Below are positions 2,023-64,000 of a DNA stretch of 64,000 bases, piece after piece; the first letter of the stretch is position 1; every line of letters begins with the position of its first letter. The stretch covers positions 2,992,036 to 3,056,035 of the forward strand of contig CP060501.1 of the NCBI GenBank assembly GCA_024760545.1, given 5' to 3'. The notes below the pieces were generated by a model, which saw nothing but the letters and a program-made list of their open reading frames with translations, searched no databases and was not told where the DNA came from. This DNA comes from Nitrospira sp. GTDB lineage: Bacteria; Nitrospirota; Nitrospiria; Nitrospirales; Nitrospiraceae. The translations under genes were made by a program, and so were the position numbers.

Positions 2023-5000
2023 TCATGAGGCAGTCGCATCCTTTTGGAGGGACTTGGTATCACAGAGATCGAGGCTTTGCAAGGTTGCGTTGAGTTCCGA
2101 GAAGAGTGACGGCCAGTCGTCATGGGTCATCTGGATTTCAAAGGAGAGGGGGGTTAGGAACCGCAGCCGCTTTTTAAGCTGGTCCATCAAGCGGTGGACT
2201 GCGCCCTCCGGGATTGCGGCTTTCGGTTGGAACACGATCTTTGCCGACCGTCCATGCACCTCAATGGTGGCCATGCGAAGACGTTTGGCATGAGTCCGGA
2301 GTTGCATCACTTCGAGAAGTCGTTCGACCGGTTCCGGAAGAGGGCCGTACCGGTCCTGAATTTCTCCATGCAACAGGGCCAGCTCGCCGAGTTGGCCACA
2401 CGCTGTCAGCCGTTTATAGAGGGACAGACGGTGATGCGGATCGGCCACATACAGTTCAGGAATAAAGGCTGAAACCGGCAGCTGGAGGGTCGGGTCCGGC
2501 TCTTCCTCGACAGCCTGGCCCTTCAACCGCTGGACGGCTTGTTCTACCATTTGCATGTAAAGATCCAAGCCGATGGCGGCGATATGGCCGGATTGCTGTT
2601 TCCCCAGGAGATTGCCGGCTCCTCGAATCTCAAGGTCTGCCGCGGCGATTCGGAATCCCGATCCGAGTTCCGTGAACTGCTGAATCGCGATCAATCGTTT
2701 CTGAGCATCGCCCGTGAGCGTTCCTTCGTCGGGGATGAGGAAGTACGCATAGGCCTGCTCTCCGCCGCGCCCCACTCGTCCCCGCAGCTGGTATAGCTGC
2801 GCGAGGCCGAAGAGGTCGGCCCGATGGACGATGATGGTGTTCGCGTTCGGGACATCGAGCCCGGACTGGATGATGGCCGAGGCGATCAAGACGTCAGCCT
2901 CACGCTTGACGAATTTCAGCATGACGGCCTCCAACGGCCTGCCATCCATCTGGCCGTGCGCCATGACCATCCGGGCTTCGGGAACCAACTGGTGCAGCCA
3001 CGCTCCGATCCGCTCCATGGTTTCAACCCGGTTGTGGACAAAATAGACTTGTCCCCCTCGTCCGAGCTCGCGCACGATCGCGTCTCGTACGGCCTTGTCG
3101 CTGAGTCGGATCACTTCCGTTTTGATCGCCAACCGTCCGGCGGGCGGGGTATCGATAATCGAGAGATCCCGAACACTCGACATGGCCATTTGAAGGGTGC
3201 GCGGAATGGGTGTGGCGGTCAACGTCAGCACATCAACCTGGGTGCGCAGTTGCTTCAGTCTTTCCTTATGCTTGACGCCGAACCACTGTTCCTCGTCAAT
3301 GATGACCAAGCCGAGTTGCCGGAACGCCACGTCCTTCTGAAGAAGCCGGTGCGTCCCGATCACGACGTCAATGGTTCCGGCCGAGACTTCTTTGAGAATA
3401 GCTTTGGTTTCCTTGGGCGACTGAAACCGAGAAAGCAGTGCCACCCGCATGGGAAACGGTCCGAATCGTTCGGCGAAGTTCTCGTAGTGTTGGTGAGCCA
3501 GGAGGGTGGTCGGCACCAACACGGCCACTTGTCGGTCATGCTCCACGGCTTTGAAGGCGGCGCGCATGGCCACTTCCGTCTTCCCGTATCCGACGTCCCC
3601 GCAGACCAGGCGGTCCATCGGCTTTGTCGATTCCATGTCCCGACCGATGTCCTCGATGGCTTTCAGCTGATCCGATGTTTCTTCGTACTCAAAGGCCGCT
3701 TCGAATTCGTGATAGAGGGTCGTCGTCGAGCCGTACGCATTCCGTTTCACCAATTCGCGGTTTGCGTAGAGATCGATCAGTTCTTGAGCCATCTCTTCGA
3801 TGTCCTTCTTCACCCGAGCGGTGGTTTTGGCCCAACTGGTTCCGCCAAGGCGATCCAGTCGAGGGACATGGCTTTCGGCCCCGCTGTAGCGTTGGATCTG
3901 ATTCAAACGATCGAGCGGGACATAGAGCGTATCTCCGCCGAAAAACTCCAGAATCAGGAAGTCGCTCTCGAAATCCTGCACCAACAGGCGTTTCAGTCCG
4001 CGATACTTGGCGATCCCGTGCTGCACGTGCACGACGTAATCGCTCACGTTGAGGTCTTCTAAGGAAGAGAGGAAGGTTGCCGTTCGGCTCTTTGGCTGTG
4101 GTTTATGTCGAGCTCCCTTCGCGAACAGTTCCTCTTCGGTCAACAGCGCAAGCCGAAGATCTCCGGAGAGAAACCCGGTCGAGAGATCGCCGTGCAACAC
4201 ATAAAATGGGAATTTTCCGGTAACCGGACTTGACCAGATCGACGGTTTCCATGGATCAGCCGGCAAATCGTGCTCTCGGAAAAGCGCCAGCAATCGGTCG
4301 ACCTGCCCGCGGCTCCGCGCCACCACCACGACACGATGCTCATTCCGCAGGCCTTCCAACAGACGAAGAGTTTGACTGAATGCGGCCCCCCGGACTCCGA
4401 GGCCTATGCTGCCGGGCAGTTGAGAGGAAAATGAAAAGGTCGGATTCCACGTTGGGTCCGGCGCCGTCAACGGTTCGAGCGCCAACATCGGCCACCCCGC
4501 AATCCGTTGTTGGATATCGTGCCAGGTCAGAAACAGTCGCTCAGGTGAAGGATAGGGGGACGACACGTCACGATCGACATGGCGAAGATATCCATCGTCG
4601 ATCTTTTCCCACGCCATCTCACATGTCTTTTTCAACATAGCCGGCTGATCGAGGGCGATAAAAGGGAACTCGGTGAGATAGTCAAATAATGTGTCCATGG
4701 AGTCGTACACGTCGGGGCTTCGCCACTCCGCGTCCGCCTGAATCGGCGCGATCGTATCCGTAGCGTCTGTGGGACGAATGAATTCCCGCGCCGGCAAGAC
4801 CCAGGCGTCGTTCAATTTTGTGATGGAGGTCTGGGTTGACGGGTCGAACAAACGAATGGATTCAACCTGATCGCCAAGAAATTCAACCCGGATGGGATTG
4901 GCATACGCGGTCGAAAAGATATCAACGATGCCACCCCGGATGCTGAACTCTCCTGGAATTTCCACAACGGACACGCGTCGGTATCCCAGGCGAAGCAGAT

Positions 5001-61468: not shown

Positions 61469-61818
61469 GGGGGCGACCGGTTTCGACGGGGATACTGAGG
61501 TCACTGTCGCATGTCGAGCTCTCGGGGACTCGTAACCCTCCGGGAAAATGCAACTGCCAATCAAGAACTGGCACTCGCAGCCTAATTTAGGCTGAGACGT
61601 CGTTCCATCTGAGGCCCGCGGGGGTGGAATGGCGCGATGCAGCGGGCTGGTCCCAAGCCGGTGCTCAGCGGCCGAGGATGAGAACTTTCTGGGCTAGCGG
61701 CTGTTCTAAGCTTGCCGATAGGCGTGGATGGCTGCGAAACTTAAATTGTCGGCTACACATGTAGACGCAGTGCACTGACGATCTTCGGACAGGGGTTCAA
61801 CTCCCCTCGCCTCCACCA
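61469..61818 (+). ncRNA. ssrA: Transfer-messenger RNA (tmRNA)
   Basis: A one-piece tmRNA of 350 nt. The 5' end GGGGGCGACCGGTTTCGACG and the 3' end GGGTTCAACTCCCCTCGCCTCCACCA form the tRNA-like domain. The acceptor stem GGGGGCG pairs with CGCCTCC, and the T-arm loop is TTCAA. The encoded tag peptide reads ATANQELALAA followed by TAA at about 61552-61587, with the resume codon GCA. It rescues stalled ribosomes with SmpB. The 3' CCA is encoded in the genome. The last 22 nt overlap the recombinase gene on the opposite strand. Confidence 0.95.
61797..61818. other. Putative attachment site (attL/attR) at the 3' end of ssrA
   Basis: The T-arm and acceptor 3' end of tmRNA, a known integration target, form the boundary between the core chromosome and the recombinase gene. 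A matching copy of part of this sequence would be expected at the far island end beyond the window. Confidence 0.6.
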
Positions 61819-63482
61819 CCACGGTTGATCAGGCTCGCGCCGGTCAACAAGCGATCGAATGTCCCGGTTGCCGTGAAGCGGTAGCCGGGCTTCCCCTCCT
61901 CCAGTATTGGCTCACACAGAATATGCCCATCCAGGAGCTTTCGGAGCATCTGGCGGGAAAGATCGACATGTCGCCCGAATAACGACGGGAGACTGCCCAG
62001 CTCCTCCTGTAAGCGCTTCGTAAGCCGCTTTTGATCCAGAGAGAGGGTGGTGGCTAGCTCTTGAAGATGCTCAAGTTCCTTGGTGAGTGCGAGCTTCCGT
62101 GCCTCCTCGCGATGAAGGGAGTGCACGACGGTCGGAGTTCCCTGGCCGGTTGCGACTAATTCCACCAGGTGGTGAAGGCGAGTCTCGATCAGAGACAGCT
62201 CGCGGAGTAGGGCCGTGTGCTGGTCGGGAAAGCGATCTTGTTTGGCTCGAAGCTTCTCTAATGCCCGGGCGACGGAGGCTGTGAGGACCCGATCATCAAT
62301 GGCCTCGTTCATGGCGTGTAGGATGGCGGAATCAAGCAGGTCTTGACGGATTGAGACCGCATTCGTACAGATCGCAGGGCCGCGCTTATGATAATACGAA
62401 CACCGGTAAACGGTCTTTCCGGACTGACCCTGGGGCCCCTTCTTGATAGCTACGATGGATCCGCCGCACGTCACACACTTGGCGATGCTGCTCAAGAGAT
62501 AGGCGCTGTGCTGGTCCTCGCCGGTGGGACGGGCCACGAGCCTTCCTTGCGCTTCACGTTGGTAGGCGGCTGCGTTCTTTCTTCGCCTGGCTTCAACCTG
62601 TTCCCACAACACATCCGAGACGATACGCAGTTCAGGCGCTTCAAGGCGAATCCAGTCTGATTCTGGACGTTGGCGCCGCTTCCTCGTGCCACCGCGTTGG
62701 ATCGTCTGTGTTCGGTTCCACCACACGATGCCCCGATAGAGGTCCCGCCGAAGAAGTTCCCGGATAGCCGTTGGACACCACCCCAGAGGTCCGCCCATGG
62801 GTGGGGCAACACGATCCTCATTGAGACTCTTCGCAATGGCGGCCAAGCCAAACCCGGACGCATAGCGCTCGAAAATCTGAACCACGACCGGCGATTGCTC
62901 AGAATTGATCTTGCGGACCACATGCTGGCGTCTGAGAGTTCCATCCGCATTCCGATCCGTGCCATAGACCGGGAAATTGTCGTAGCCATAGATTTTATTG
63001 CCGGTCACATAAAGGCTTTTGGCCTTGCGCAACATGGCATCGTGAGTGCGTTGGCTCGCTTTCTCACGTTCAAACTCGGAGGCGAAGTTCGTGAGCGCCA
63101 GCAGCATCTTGTCTGTGGCGCTATCAAGCTTCCGTTCCTGGTCGGTGAGATAGAAGAAGACCTGCACCCCTGCATCGACAATCTGCTTGAAGGCATAGCC
63201 GACCTGGATGGCTTCACGGCCGAGCCGCGATTCCTCGGACATGACCAAGACCTGAAAGGGTGCGTGGGGCTTGAGGGCGTTCATGAGCCGCAAGAATCCG
63301 GGCCGTTTCACAAATTCGGCGCCGCTGACCCCGTCATCGACGAACACATGATTGTCGGAGACCGTCCAACCCTTCTTCTCGGCGTAGGCCTTGGCGTTTT
63401 CGATCTGGCGAGTGACTGAGCGGGCCTCGGCGGCTACGCCGGTCTGTTCCGTGGATTTTCTCGCGTACACAGCTGCCTGCAT
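61797..63482 (-). CDS. Large serine recombinase of an ssrA-integrated genomic island
   Basis: A 561-residue site-specific recombinase. The resolvase domain (1-150) starts AAVYARKSTEQTG, with the nucleophile Ser in ARKST, and continues with the helix region EESRLGREAIQVGYAFK. The recombinase domain (about 180-290) is followed by a zinc ribbon (CVTCGGSIVAIKKG ... CSYYHKRGPAICTN) and a long coiled coil (about 390-500). The last six codons and the TGA stop lie inside the 3' end of ssrA. The stop codon is the complement of the T-loop sequence. This shows insertion at ssrA and makes this end the island's attachment site. Convergent with ssrA. Confidence 0.92.
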   Translation of the reverse strand: MQAAVYARKSTEQTGVAAEARSVTRQIENAKAYAEKKGWTVSDNHVFVDDGVSGAEFVKRPGFLRLMNALKPHAPFQVLVMSEESRLGREAIQVGYAFKQIVDAGVQVFFYLTDQERKLDSATDKMLLALTNFASEFEREKASQRTHDAMLRKAKSLYVTGNKIYGYDNFPVYGTDRNADGTLRRQHVVRKINSEQSPVVVQIFERYASGFGLAAIAKSLNEDRVAPPMGGPLGWCPTAIRELLRRDLYRGIVWWNRTQTIQRGGTRKRRQRPESDWIRLEAPELRIVSDVLWEQVEARRRKNAAAYQREAQGRLVARPTGEDQHSAYLLSSIAKCVTCGGSIVAIKKGPQGQSGKTVYRCSYYHKRGPAICTNAVSIRQDLLDSAILHAMNEAIDDRVLTASVARALEKLRAKQDRFPDQHTALLRELSLIETRLHHLVELVATGQGTPTVVHSLHREEARKLALTKELEHLQELATTLSLDQKRLTKRLQEELGSLPSLFGRHVDLSRQMLRKLLDGHILCEPILEEGKPGYRFTATGTFDRLLTGASLINRGGGGEGS

Positions 63483-63731
63483 TTACGCCTCGACGACCTC
63501 TGGTGAACCCGGACGATGCCGCTGAACCTCAGCGAATGTCAAGCCCGGAGCAGGACCCGTGGTGTGGACCGACTGGTATTCCTGCACGAGGATCTCGGAG
63601 AGCAGCTCTACCACGGCGTTAAAGACATCGGGTGGCCAAGTCTCCGAACCCAGGCCTCGCCGGAGGCCGGACCCTTGCCCCTCAGCAATACCCGAAGCAC
63701 GTGCAGGAGTCGATACAGTGAGCATAATCAC
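63483..63731 (-). CDS. Island-encoded hypothetical protein (82 aa)
   Basis: An 82-residue protein with no recognised family. It contains a central helix ([19 protein letters not shown]) and a Pro/Gly-rich end. The GTG start overlaps the stop of the helicase gene upstream; an ATG two codons in (63725) is also possible. Its stop adjoins the recombinase start, so the three island genes are one unit. Base use is G+C-rich like its neighbours. Confidence 0.5.
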
Positions 63732-64000
63732 TCGATCCCTAAATCCTCGAACCGTGCATATCGATCCACAAACCGCAGGCGCCGATCGCCGACGGGCCCA
63801 TTGCGATGCTTCCGGATAAGAACCTCGGCGACCCCCTTCTCCTCAGTGTCCCGCACATACACTTCGTGTCGGTACAGAAACAGCACGAGGTCGGCATCCT
63901 GCTCGATGGCGCCAGAATCGCGAAGGTCGGAGAGCATGGGGCGCTTGTCGTCTCGTCGTTCGCACTCTCGAGACAGTTGGGAGAGCGCGAGGACAGGGAT
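63728..64000 (-). CDS. Replicative DNA helicase (DnaB-type), C-terminal part, cut by the window end
   Basis: Partial: the gene runs past the window start on the minus strand (5' end outside). The visible 90 residues are DnaB C-terminal: [20 protein letters not shown], then [20 protein letters not shown], with the DnaB-like [21 protein letters not shown] region and [14 protein letters not shown], which carries the arginine-finger stretch. An island-encoded helicase implies self-replicating or phage-like capacity. The upstream Walker A part is not in the window. Confidence 0.88.

Follow-up and report, generated by a model that had tools for sequence, protein, structure and literature searches.

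The window analysed here is a 64,000-nucleotide stretch (C1:2992036-3056035) of a 4.8-Mb Nitrospira sp. genome. It holds the tmRNA gene ssrA on the plus strand (61469..61818), which was recognised by ARAGORN and by Rfam model RF00023 (174.7 bits, E 2e-69), encodes the tag ANQELALAA and offers its 3' end as an attachment target. Facing it on the minus strand is int (61797..63482), an open reading frame for a large serine integrase of 561 aa when integrated, with the Pfam domains Resolvase, Recombinase and Zn_ribbon_recom, a zinc ribbon, in that order (E 1.2e-23, 1e-21 and 3.6e-11, all above the cut-offs). In the alignment of its relatives Y6, R8 and S10 are invariant, and the motif Y-[AV]-R-K-S with the catalytic serine is kept. 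Immediately 5' of int the ORF list gives a small minus-strand ORF of 82 aa without a Pfam match (63483..63731), and next to it lies the 3' part of the island's dnaB-like helicase gene (63728..64000, minus strand, DnaB_C E 1e-35), which encodes 502 aa in full, beyond the window (DnaB_C 1.8e-88 for the full gene).

The two genes int and ssrA overlap in antisense by 22 bp (61797..61818). An earlier, sequence-only reading of this DNA had placed the end of a serine recombinase ORF antisense within ssrA and had drawn its final six codons and TGA from the acceptor stem and T-loop; ARAGORN, Rfam and Pfam agree with the first statement and a reverse-complement match with the second. Reverse-complemented, the ssrA acceptor stem and T arm give the last codons of int, GGT GGA GGC GAG GGG AGT TGA (GGGEGS*), with the stop TGA antisense to the TCA of the T-loop. 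Because intact relatives in other Nitrospira and in other phyla repeatedly end alike in tmRNA or tRNA genes, the overlap is evidently not a product of chance.

Positions 61819..64000 of the window are the left part of a 23,420-bp island that runs on outside the window to window-equivalent position 85224. Its left end is marked by the 14-bp attL core CCTCGCCTCCACCA (61805..61818, plus strand) and its right end by a second copy of CCTCGCCTCCACCA, the attR core (C1:3077260-3077273, window-equivalent 85225-85238, outside the window), the two cores lying 23,420 bp apart. The attR core is followed by the native ssrA 3' flank AACC..GCGC..GCCGGCGGC..GCCGCCGG, which contains a terminator-like hairpin and stands directly behind ssrA in island-free strains. 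In the same-species genome G082, ssrA reads straight into this flank and the 14-bp core is common to both alignments, so this natural empty site fixes both island ends to the base. The repeated ssrA 3' segment that the sequence-only reading had proposed to look for at a far island end is thus present at C1:3077260, and neither observation that it had set against itself, a missing downstream att repeat and an unchanged gene arrangement in island-free strains, was made, since the repeat exists and ssrA of G082 runs into the flank. The island has the features of a tDNA island: a restored target gene, a repeat of its 3' fragment, int inside and an empty site in a close strain.

Several further observations concern the island and its surroundings. 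Two other copies of the core outside the window, at C1:3080020 and C1:3091456 (L005:6621 and L005:18057), were the first candidates for the far end and were rejected when the empty site of G082 placed that end at 3077260. Each is backed by a decayed integrase 3' end, and both are remnants of older insertions. Between them lie ORFs resembling a 2-oxoacid:ferredoxin oxidoreductase and FtsH, so that core-like genes are located among island remnants. A GC-rich hairpin like the native ssrA terminator is found behind ssrA in the island-free loci L046, L059 and L067 and to the right of attR cores; since integration moves this terminator-like hairpin to the far island end, integrated ssrA would need another terminator. 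Outside the window the island encodes a protein in which four cadherin-like beta-sandwich repeats come after a TIR domain (L004:9019-10734, plus strand), possibly a defence or sensing protein. At its right end are two terminase-small-subunit-like genes (L005:1924-2427 and 2934-3377, minus strand), which together with dnaB and int suggest that the island is a phage satellite or a decayed phage.

The claim of the sequence-only reading that the int C-terminus depends on the integrated state was borne out by the reconstruction of the circle that it had called for. Integrated int encodes 561 aa ending in ..GGGGEGS; when the far flank is joined to the core, the circular form encodes 584 aa ending in ..GGGGEALNPSLISHLGPSLTFTIQGKVLAA. 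Here GS is replaced by ALNPSLISHLGPSLTFTIQGKVLAA, so that the circular gene reads ..LINRGGGGEALNPSLISHLGPSLTFTIQGKVLAA against ..GGGGEGS in the integrated one, and the predicted junction sequence ..GGAGGCGAGGCGCTCAACCC.. continues in frame to a TGA. The codons missing from integrated int were read at the right island end (C1:about 3077183-3077259, minus strand). Recombination cuts int at the core, so one gene would give two proteins according to its state. In the reconstructed circle the int TGA overlaps the ATG of a gene for a TSCPD-domain protein (L005:3374-3787). The stop codon in the T-loop, on which the sequence-only reading had laid weight, holds for the window int but not as a rule: other relatives read across the tRNA in different frames to stops at different places, and what is conserved is the passage over the core rather than a stop in the T-loop.

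The tail of the circular form, that is, the codons from the core to the distant stop, is conserved among elements at ssrA. Of 79 Nitrospira genomes searched with the far arm, 14 had matches. Twelve distinct far arms from 10 genomes keep the frame open from the core to the same stop over 25 codons, ending in VLAA (ten arms), VRAA (one) or VLAT (one), so that 11 of the 12 end in AA. Divergence per site in this family is ~0.10 in the tail versus ~0.62 directly past the stop, and variable tail sites fall on the three codon positions as 8/7/13. One additional old copy has compensating -1 and +1 indels within the tail and retains the end GKVLAA*, and the circular reading of the older ssrA arm at 3080020 ends in RFHIHGIALAA. 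A tail of this kind is clearly not a chance reading frame. It was also considered whether GCATGA, conserved where the tail ends, reflects the start of a downstream gene. A long ORF follows only in the window's island (TSCPD, 137 aa), with ORFs of just 10-44 codons in the other arms, and a downstream gene therefore does not explain the conservation of GCATGA.

The same arrangement recurs at other targets. All but two of the intact close Nitrospira relatives with mapped neighbours end antisense in the tmRNA gene or in a gene for tRNA-Ala, -Glu, -Met or -Arg, the exceptions being L010/L162, which lies away from ssrA, and L090/L173, which has a tRNA-Glu core without a tRNA. The layout is also found in Acidobacteria, Rokubacteria, Gammaproteobacteria and other groups, where tRNA-Ser and tRNA-Leu are among the targets. 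Ending in the tDNA target is, as far as these sequences go, the rule for the two integrase clades studied here, clade A, to which the window belongs, and the distant clade B. The three reconstructed tRNA-Glu circular forms have integrases ending in LRFTIELLVEAA (VEAA; G000, 24,466 bp), WAIPFQGVVQAA (N. moscoviensis, 17,201 bp) and LIIPFSGGVPARAA (G019, 3,923 bp), with the final residues VEAA, VQAA and ARAA, and the reconstructed tRNA-Met element of G079 (13,853 bp) has an integrase ending in FNPSVTIALTA. The tRNA-Glu element of G000 is a second island of 24.5 kb (C1:2354651-2379117, L122-L123), in which a serine integrase of 51% identity adjoins a DnaB-like gene. Next to the contig start, G000 has another serine integrase, of the distant clade, at tRNA-Met (C1:1538-3136, L100); no far end to match it was found in the final 60 kb of this contig. 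In L173 (G081 C48, a MAG) the tRNA-Glu core lies inside the integrase ORF and the IPFKG motif is kept, with no AA end in frame; GCG GCC GCA TAA stands in the neighbouring frame, as if the tail had been frame-shifted. The close relative L162 (79%; G007 C27:203571-205330) has a 12-nt ssrA-type core at a non-ssrA locus and an unrelated C-terminus. It was considered as an attP form and rejected, as it lacks the conserved P' arm despite that core; its locus is possibly a secondary attachment site.

Reconstruction is not the only source of evidence for the tail, because core and tail also share a single ORF on natural contigs whose attP is intact. Such contigs, from IMG/VR and one MAG, have a tRNA core within the integrase ORF and no tRNA adjoining it. 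These relatives were obtained from IMG/VR with an alignment as query; the window int as a single-protein query gave no matches there, and searches of plasmid and phage collections returned distant matches only. In L226, L227, L195 and L228 a stretch of 14-21 nt matches the 3' end of tRNA-Glu and lies 48-67 nt ahead of the stop, and the tails end in RRAA, RRAA, RRAA and KVA, respectively. Intact attP sites with tRNA-Met cores in the integrase ORF occur in the distant clade in L244, L245, L257, L259, L261, L278, L284 and L309. L230 and L231 have AA ends and no recognisable core was found in them; L204 and L207, in which no core was found, were left out of the counts. We are highly confident of the sequence-level picture, namely the island ends, the empty site, the two C-termini read off the DNA, a frame and stop that are conserved, and relatives with an intact attP that are laid out alike.

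The tail is very probably selected as protein. Eight distant-clade tails differ pairwise by 0.29/0.28/0.56 at the three codon positions, 107 of 109 base changes in codons for identical residues are at position 3, and the strand [LVI]RIPL is retained. Two distant-clade Nitrospira elements at different targets, G016 (ssrA) and G076 (tRNA-Met), have FSPTIRVPLR in common with six synonymous codon differences and zero others. The excess at position 3 and the exclusively synonymous change reject a purely DNA-level cause, and they bear directly on the proposal that the tail DNA is kept merely as the P' arm of the attachment site, its open frame being a by-product. Serine integrases touch roughly 25 bp on either side of the att core; the arm adjoins the core and the length from core to stop is almost constant across the ssrA family, as that proposal would have it. 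The conservation, however, spans ~77 bp and breaks off at the stop, one old copy has compensating indels, and AA ends are built from different codons in unrelated arms, all of which make a mere P' arm very unlikely. Ordinary gene overlap, in which the integrase simply has no stop before ssrA and its ends are functionally meaningless, would fit the integrated C-termini, which change freely from one target to the next (GGGEGS, ASPTGFEPVF, GVPNGI) and are probably unselected for that reason. It would not account for the circular-form tails, which are conserved where the integrated ends are not, nor for the core and tail in one ORF on intact-attP contigs, and we regard it as very improbable.

Our results support a model in which attP lies inside the int reading frame, ~25 codons ahead of its true stop. 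In circular form, int would encode the 584-aa integrase with the conserved tail and the end -Leu-Ala-Ala. When the circle recombines with the 3' end of ssrA, int would be cut at the core and the tail codons carried to the far island end, leaving integrated int with an ssrA-antisense end (GGGEGS). The Ala-Ala end may act as a ClpXP/ssrA-type degron that makes the circular-form integrase short-lived, and integrated int would give a stable, altered integrase. We consider this explanation as a whole, with attP in int, a selected tail removed by integration and a degron in the window's clade, to be probable.

The part of the model that concerns the degron and the two stabilities in the window's clade is held more tentatively, as close to an even call. 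It is favoured by the Ala-Ala ends, the host tag, the likeness to ClpXP signals and the predicted disorder of the tail. Among the circular-form families of this clade 10 of 12 have an Ala-Ala end, versus 21 of 789 other genes (2.7%) at the same loci (binomial P ~1e-14, with related elements treated as independent though they share ancestry). The 12 families are two ssrA arms, the three tRNA-Glu reconstructions, L195, L226, L227, L228 (VA), L230, L231 and L173 (not AA); L162, like L173, does not end in AA. The host tmRNA tag ends in ALAA (ARAGORN), and AA-ended tails of the ssrA-tag kind are classical ClpXP signals. AlphaFold2 predicts the tail of the clade A protein L227 to be disordered, with pLDDT < 50 over residues 555-570, from a shallow alignment of 18 rows with few tails. 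Ala-Ala as a universal rule was rejected, since it is mainly a trait of the window's clade: just 3 of ~25 intact-attP proteins of the distant clade end in AA, too few for a degron function to account for the tail in general.

It is also quite possible, if short of probable, that the tail is no degron and instead takes part in the work of the enzyme, as a short strand or peptide on which activity or direction depends. In that case the long form would favour attP x attB and the truncated form would be weaker or changed, stabilising the integrated state, as reported for Mx8. A hydrophobic core [IV]-x-[IV]-P-[LF] is found in the tails of both clades (IPFQG, IPLRG, RIPL, IIPF) and points to an older role, enzymatic or regulatory. 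In the AlphaFold2 model of L261 (clade B) VRIP at residues 513-516 forms a strand in a block of pLDDT 75, behind a linker of low confidence in which the tRNA-derived core lies. In Mx8 the integrase changes specificity when the 3' end is swapped (PMC6070905). Against a role in the enzyme, the tail of the window's clade is predicted to be disordered and has the terminal Ala-Ala as its most constant feature. The L261 model aligns with the solved structures 9y66, 9dxh, 9iu2, 9u2s and 4kis, and its tail is outside the aligned range, so a structural precedent was not found; residues 511-520 had no solved match among the matches listed. Returning to the model, its general form, in which widespread tRNA- and tmRNA-targeting serine integrases rewrite their own C-terminus, the tail (a degron in the Nitrospira clade, a strand elsewhere) limits or directs the enzyme, and integration switches stability or direction, seems to us evenly balanced between true and false. 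If it is true, a single DNA crossover couples integration to integrase turnover or direction. The biology is in any case wider than the sequence-only reading supposed, as numerous relatives of the element, from other bacteria and from viruses, share the layout.

The serine integrases phiC31, Bxb1 and Listeria LI have the same domain layout and fold as int. These three are not known to have attP inside the integrase reading frame. The SSV integrase is a tyrosine recombinase whose gene is split by integration, unlike the serine int here. Archaeal virus integrases of the SSV type reach across attP at a tRNA gene, and int resembles them in this crossing (PMC4383910). In the Myxococcus phage Mx8, attP likewise lies inside int, and integration gives a new 3' end and an altered protein (PMC6070905, PMC4383910). 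Mx8 differs in that it is placed in the attP-crossing list of Islander, a survey of tyrosine integrases only (PMC4383910), and the passages considered describe no Ala-Ala tail. In the mycobacteriophage BPs, attP lies in a regulatory gene, and a C-terminal ssrA-like degron of the circular form is lost on integration, which stabilises the protein (PMC4557955). There the split gene is that of the repressor and the degron is proven by experiment, whereas here it is that of the integrase and the degron is putative.

The closest layout is that of DsiB in the ssrA islands of Dehalococcoides, where a serine recombinase gene adjoins attL and its 3' end always overlaps att (McMurdie 2011, PMC3146451), as int overlaps attL at ssrA. 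Its authors suggested that full function might be reached only in the circular element and called the stop unclear, and the passages considered describe no circular C-terminus, conserved tail or Ala-Ala end; the likeness noted here is one of layout. The DsiB-type module is described there as including a second small serine recombinase and RecF-like, ParBc and Mom genes (PMC3146451). The window's island has a small resolvase (L004:5848-6558) beside the DnaB helicase, and no RecF-like, ParBc or Mom domains were found among the island proteins scanned, which were part of its ORFs. The Islander survey gave serine integrases as 'not known' to target tDNAs (PMC4383910), and our results indicate that they commonly do. 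The remark of the sequence-only reading that a serine integrase at ssrA is less usual therefore agrees with that literature, but such an integrase is not unique, as DsiB overlaps its target alike (PMC3146451). The attP-in-int layout (DsiB, Mx8, SSV) and a degron removed by integration (BPs) were already known. New, as far as the literature considered goes, are that serine integrases have a circular tail which is defined and conserved, that it ends in Ala-Ala in the window's clade, and that the layout is spread over two integrase clades and many tRNA targets. The question left by the DsiB work in 2011 thus receives an answer from sequence, in that circular integrases of this kind possess a defined, conserved C-terminus. 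It also suggests that cloning a serine integrase out of an element integrated at a tRNA gene yields a protein whose C-terminus is wrong and comes from the host, a point of importance for the mining of integrases as tools for genome engineering.
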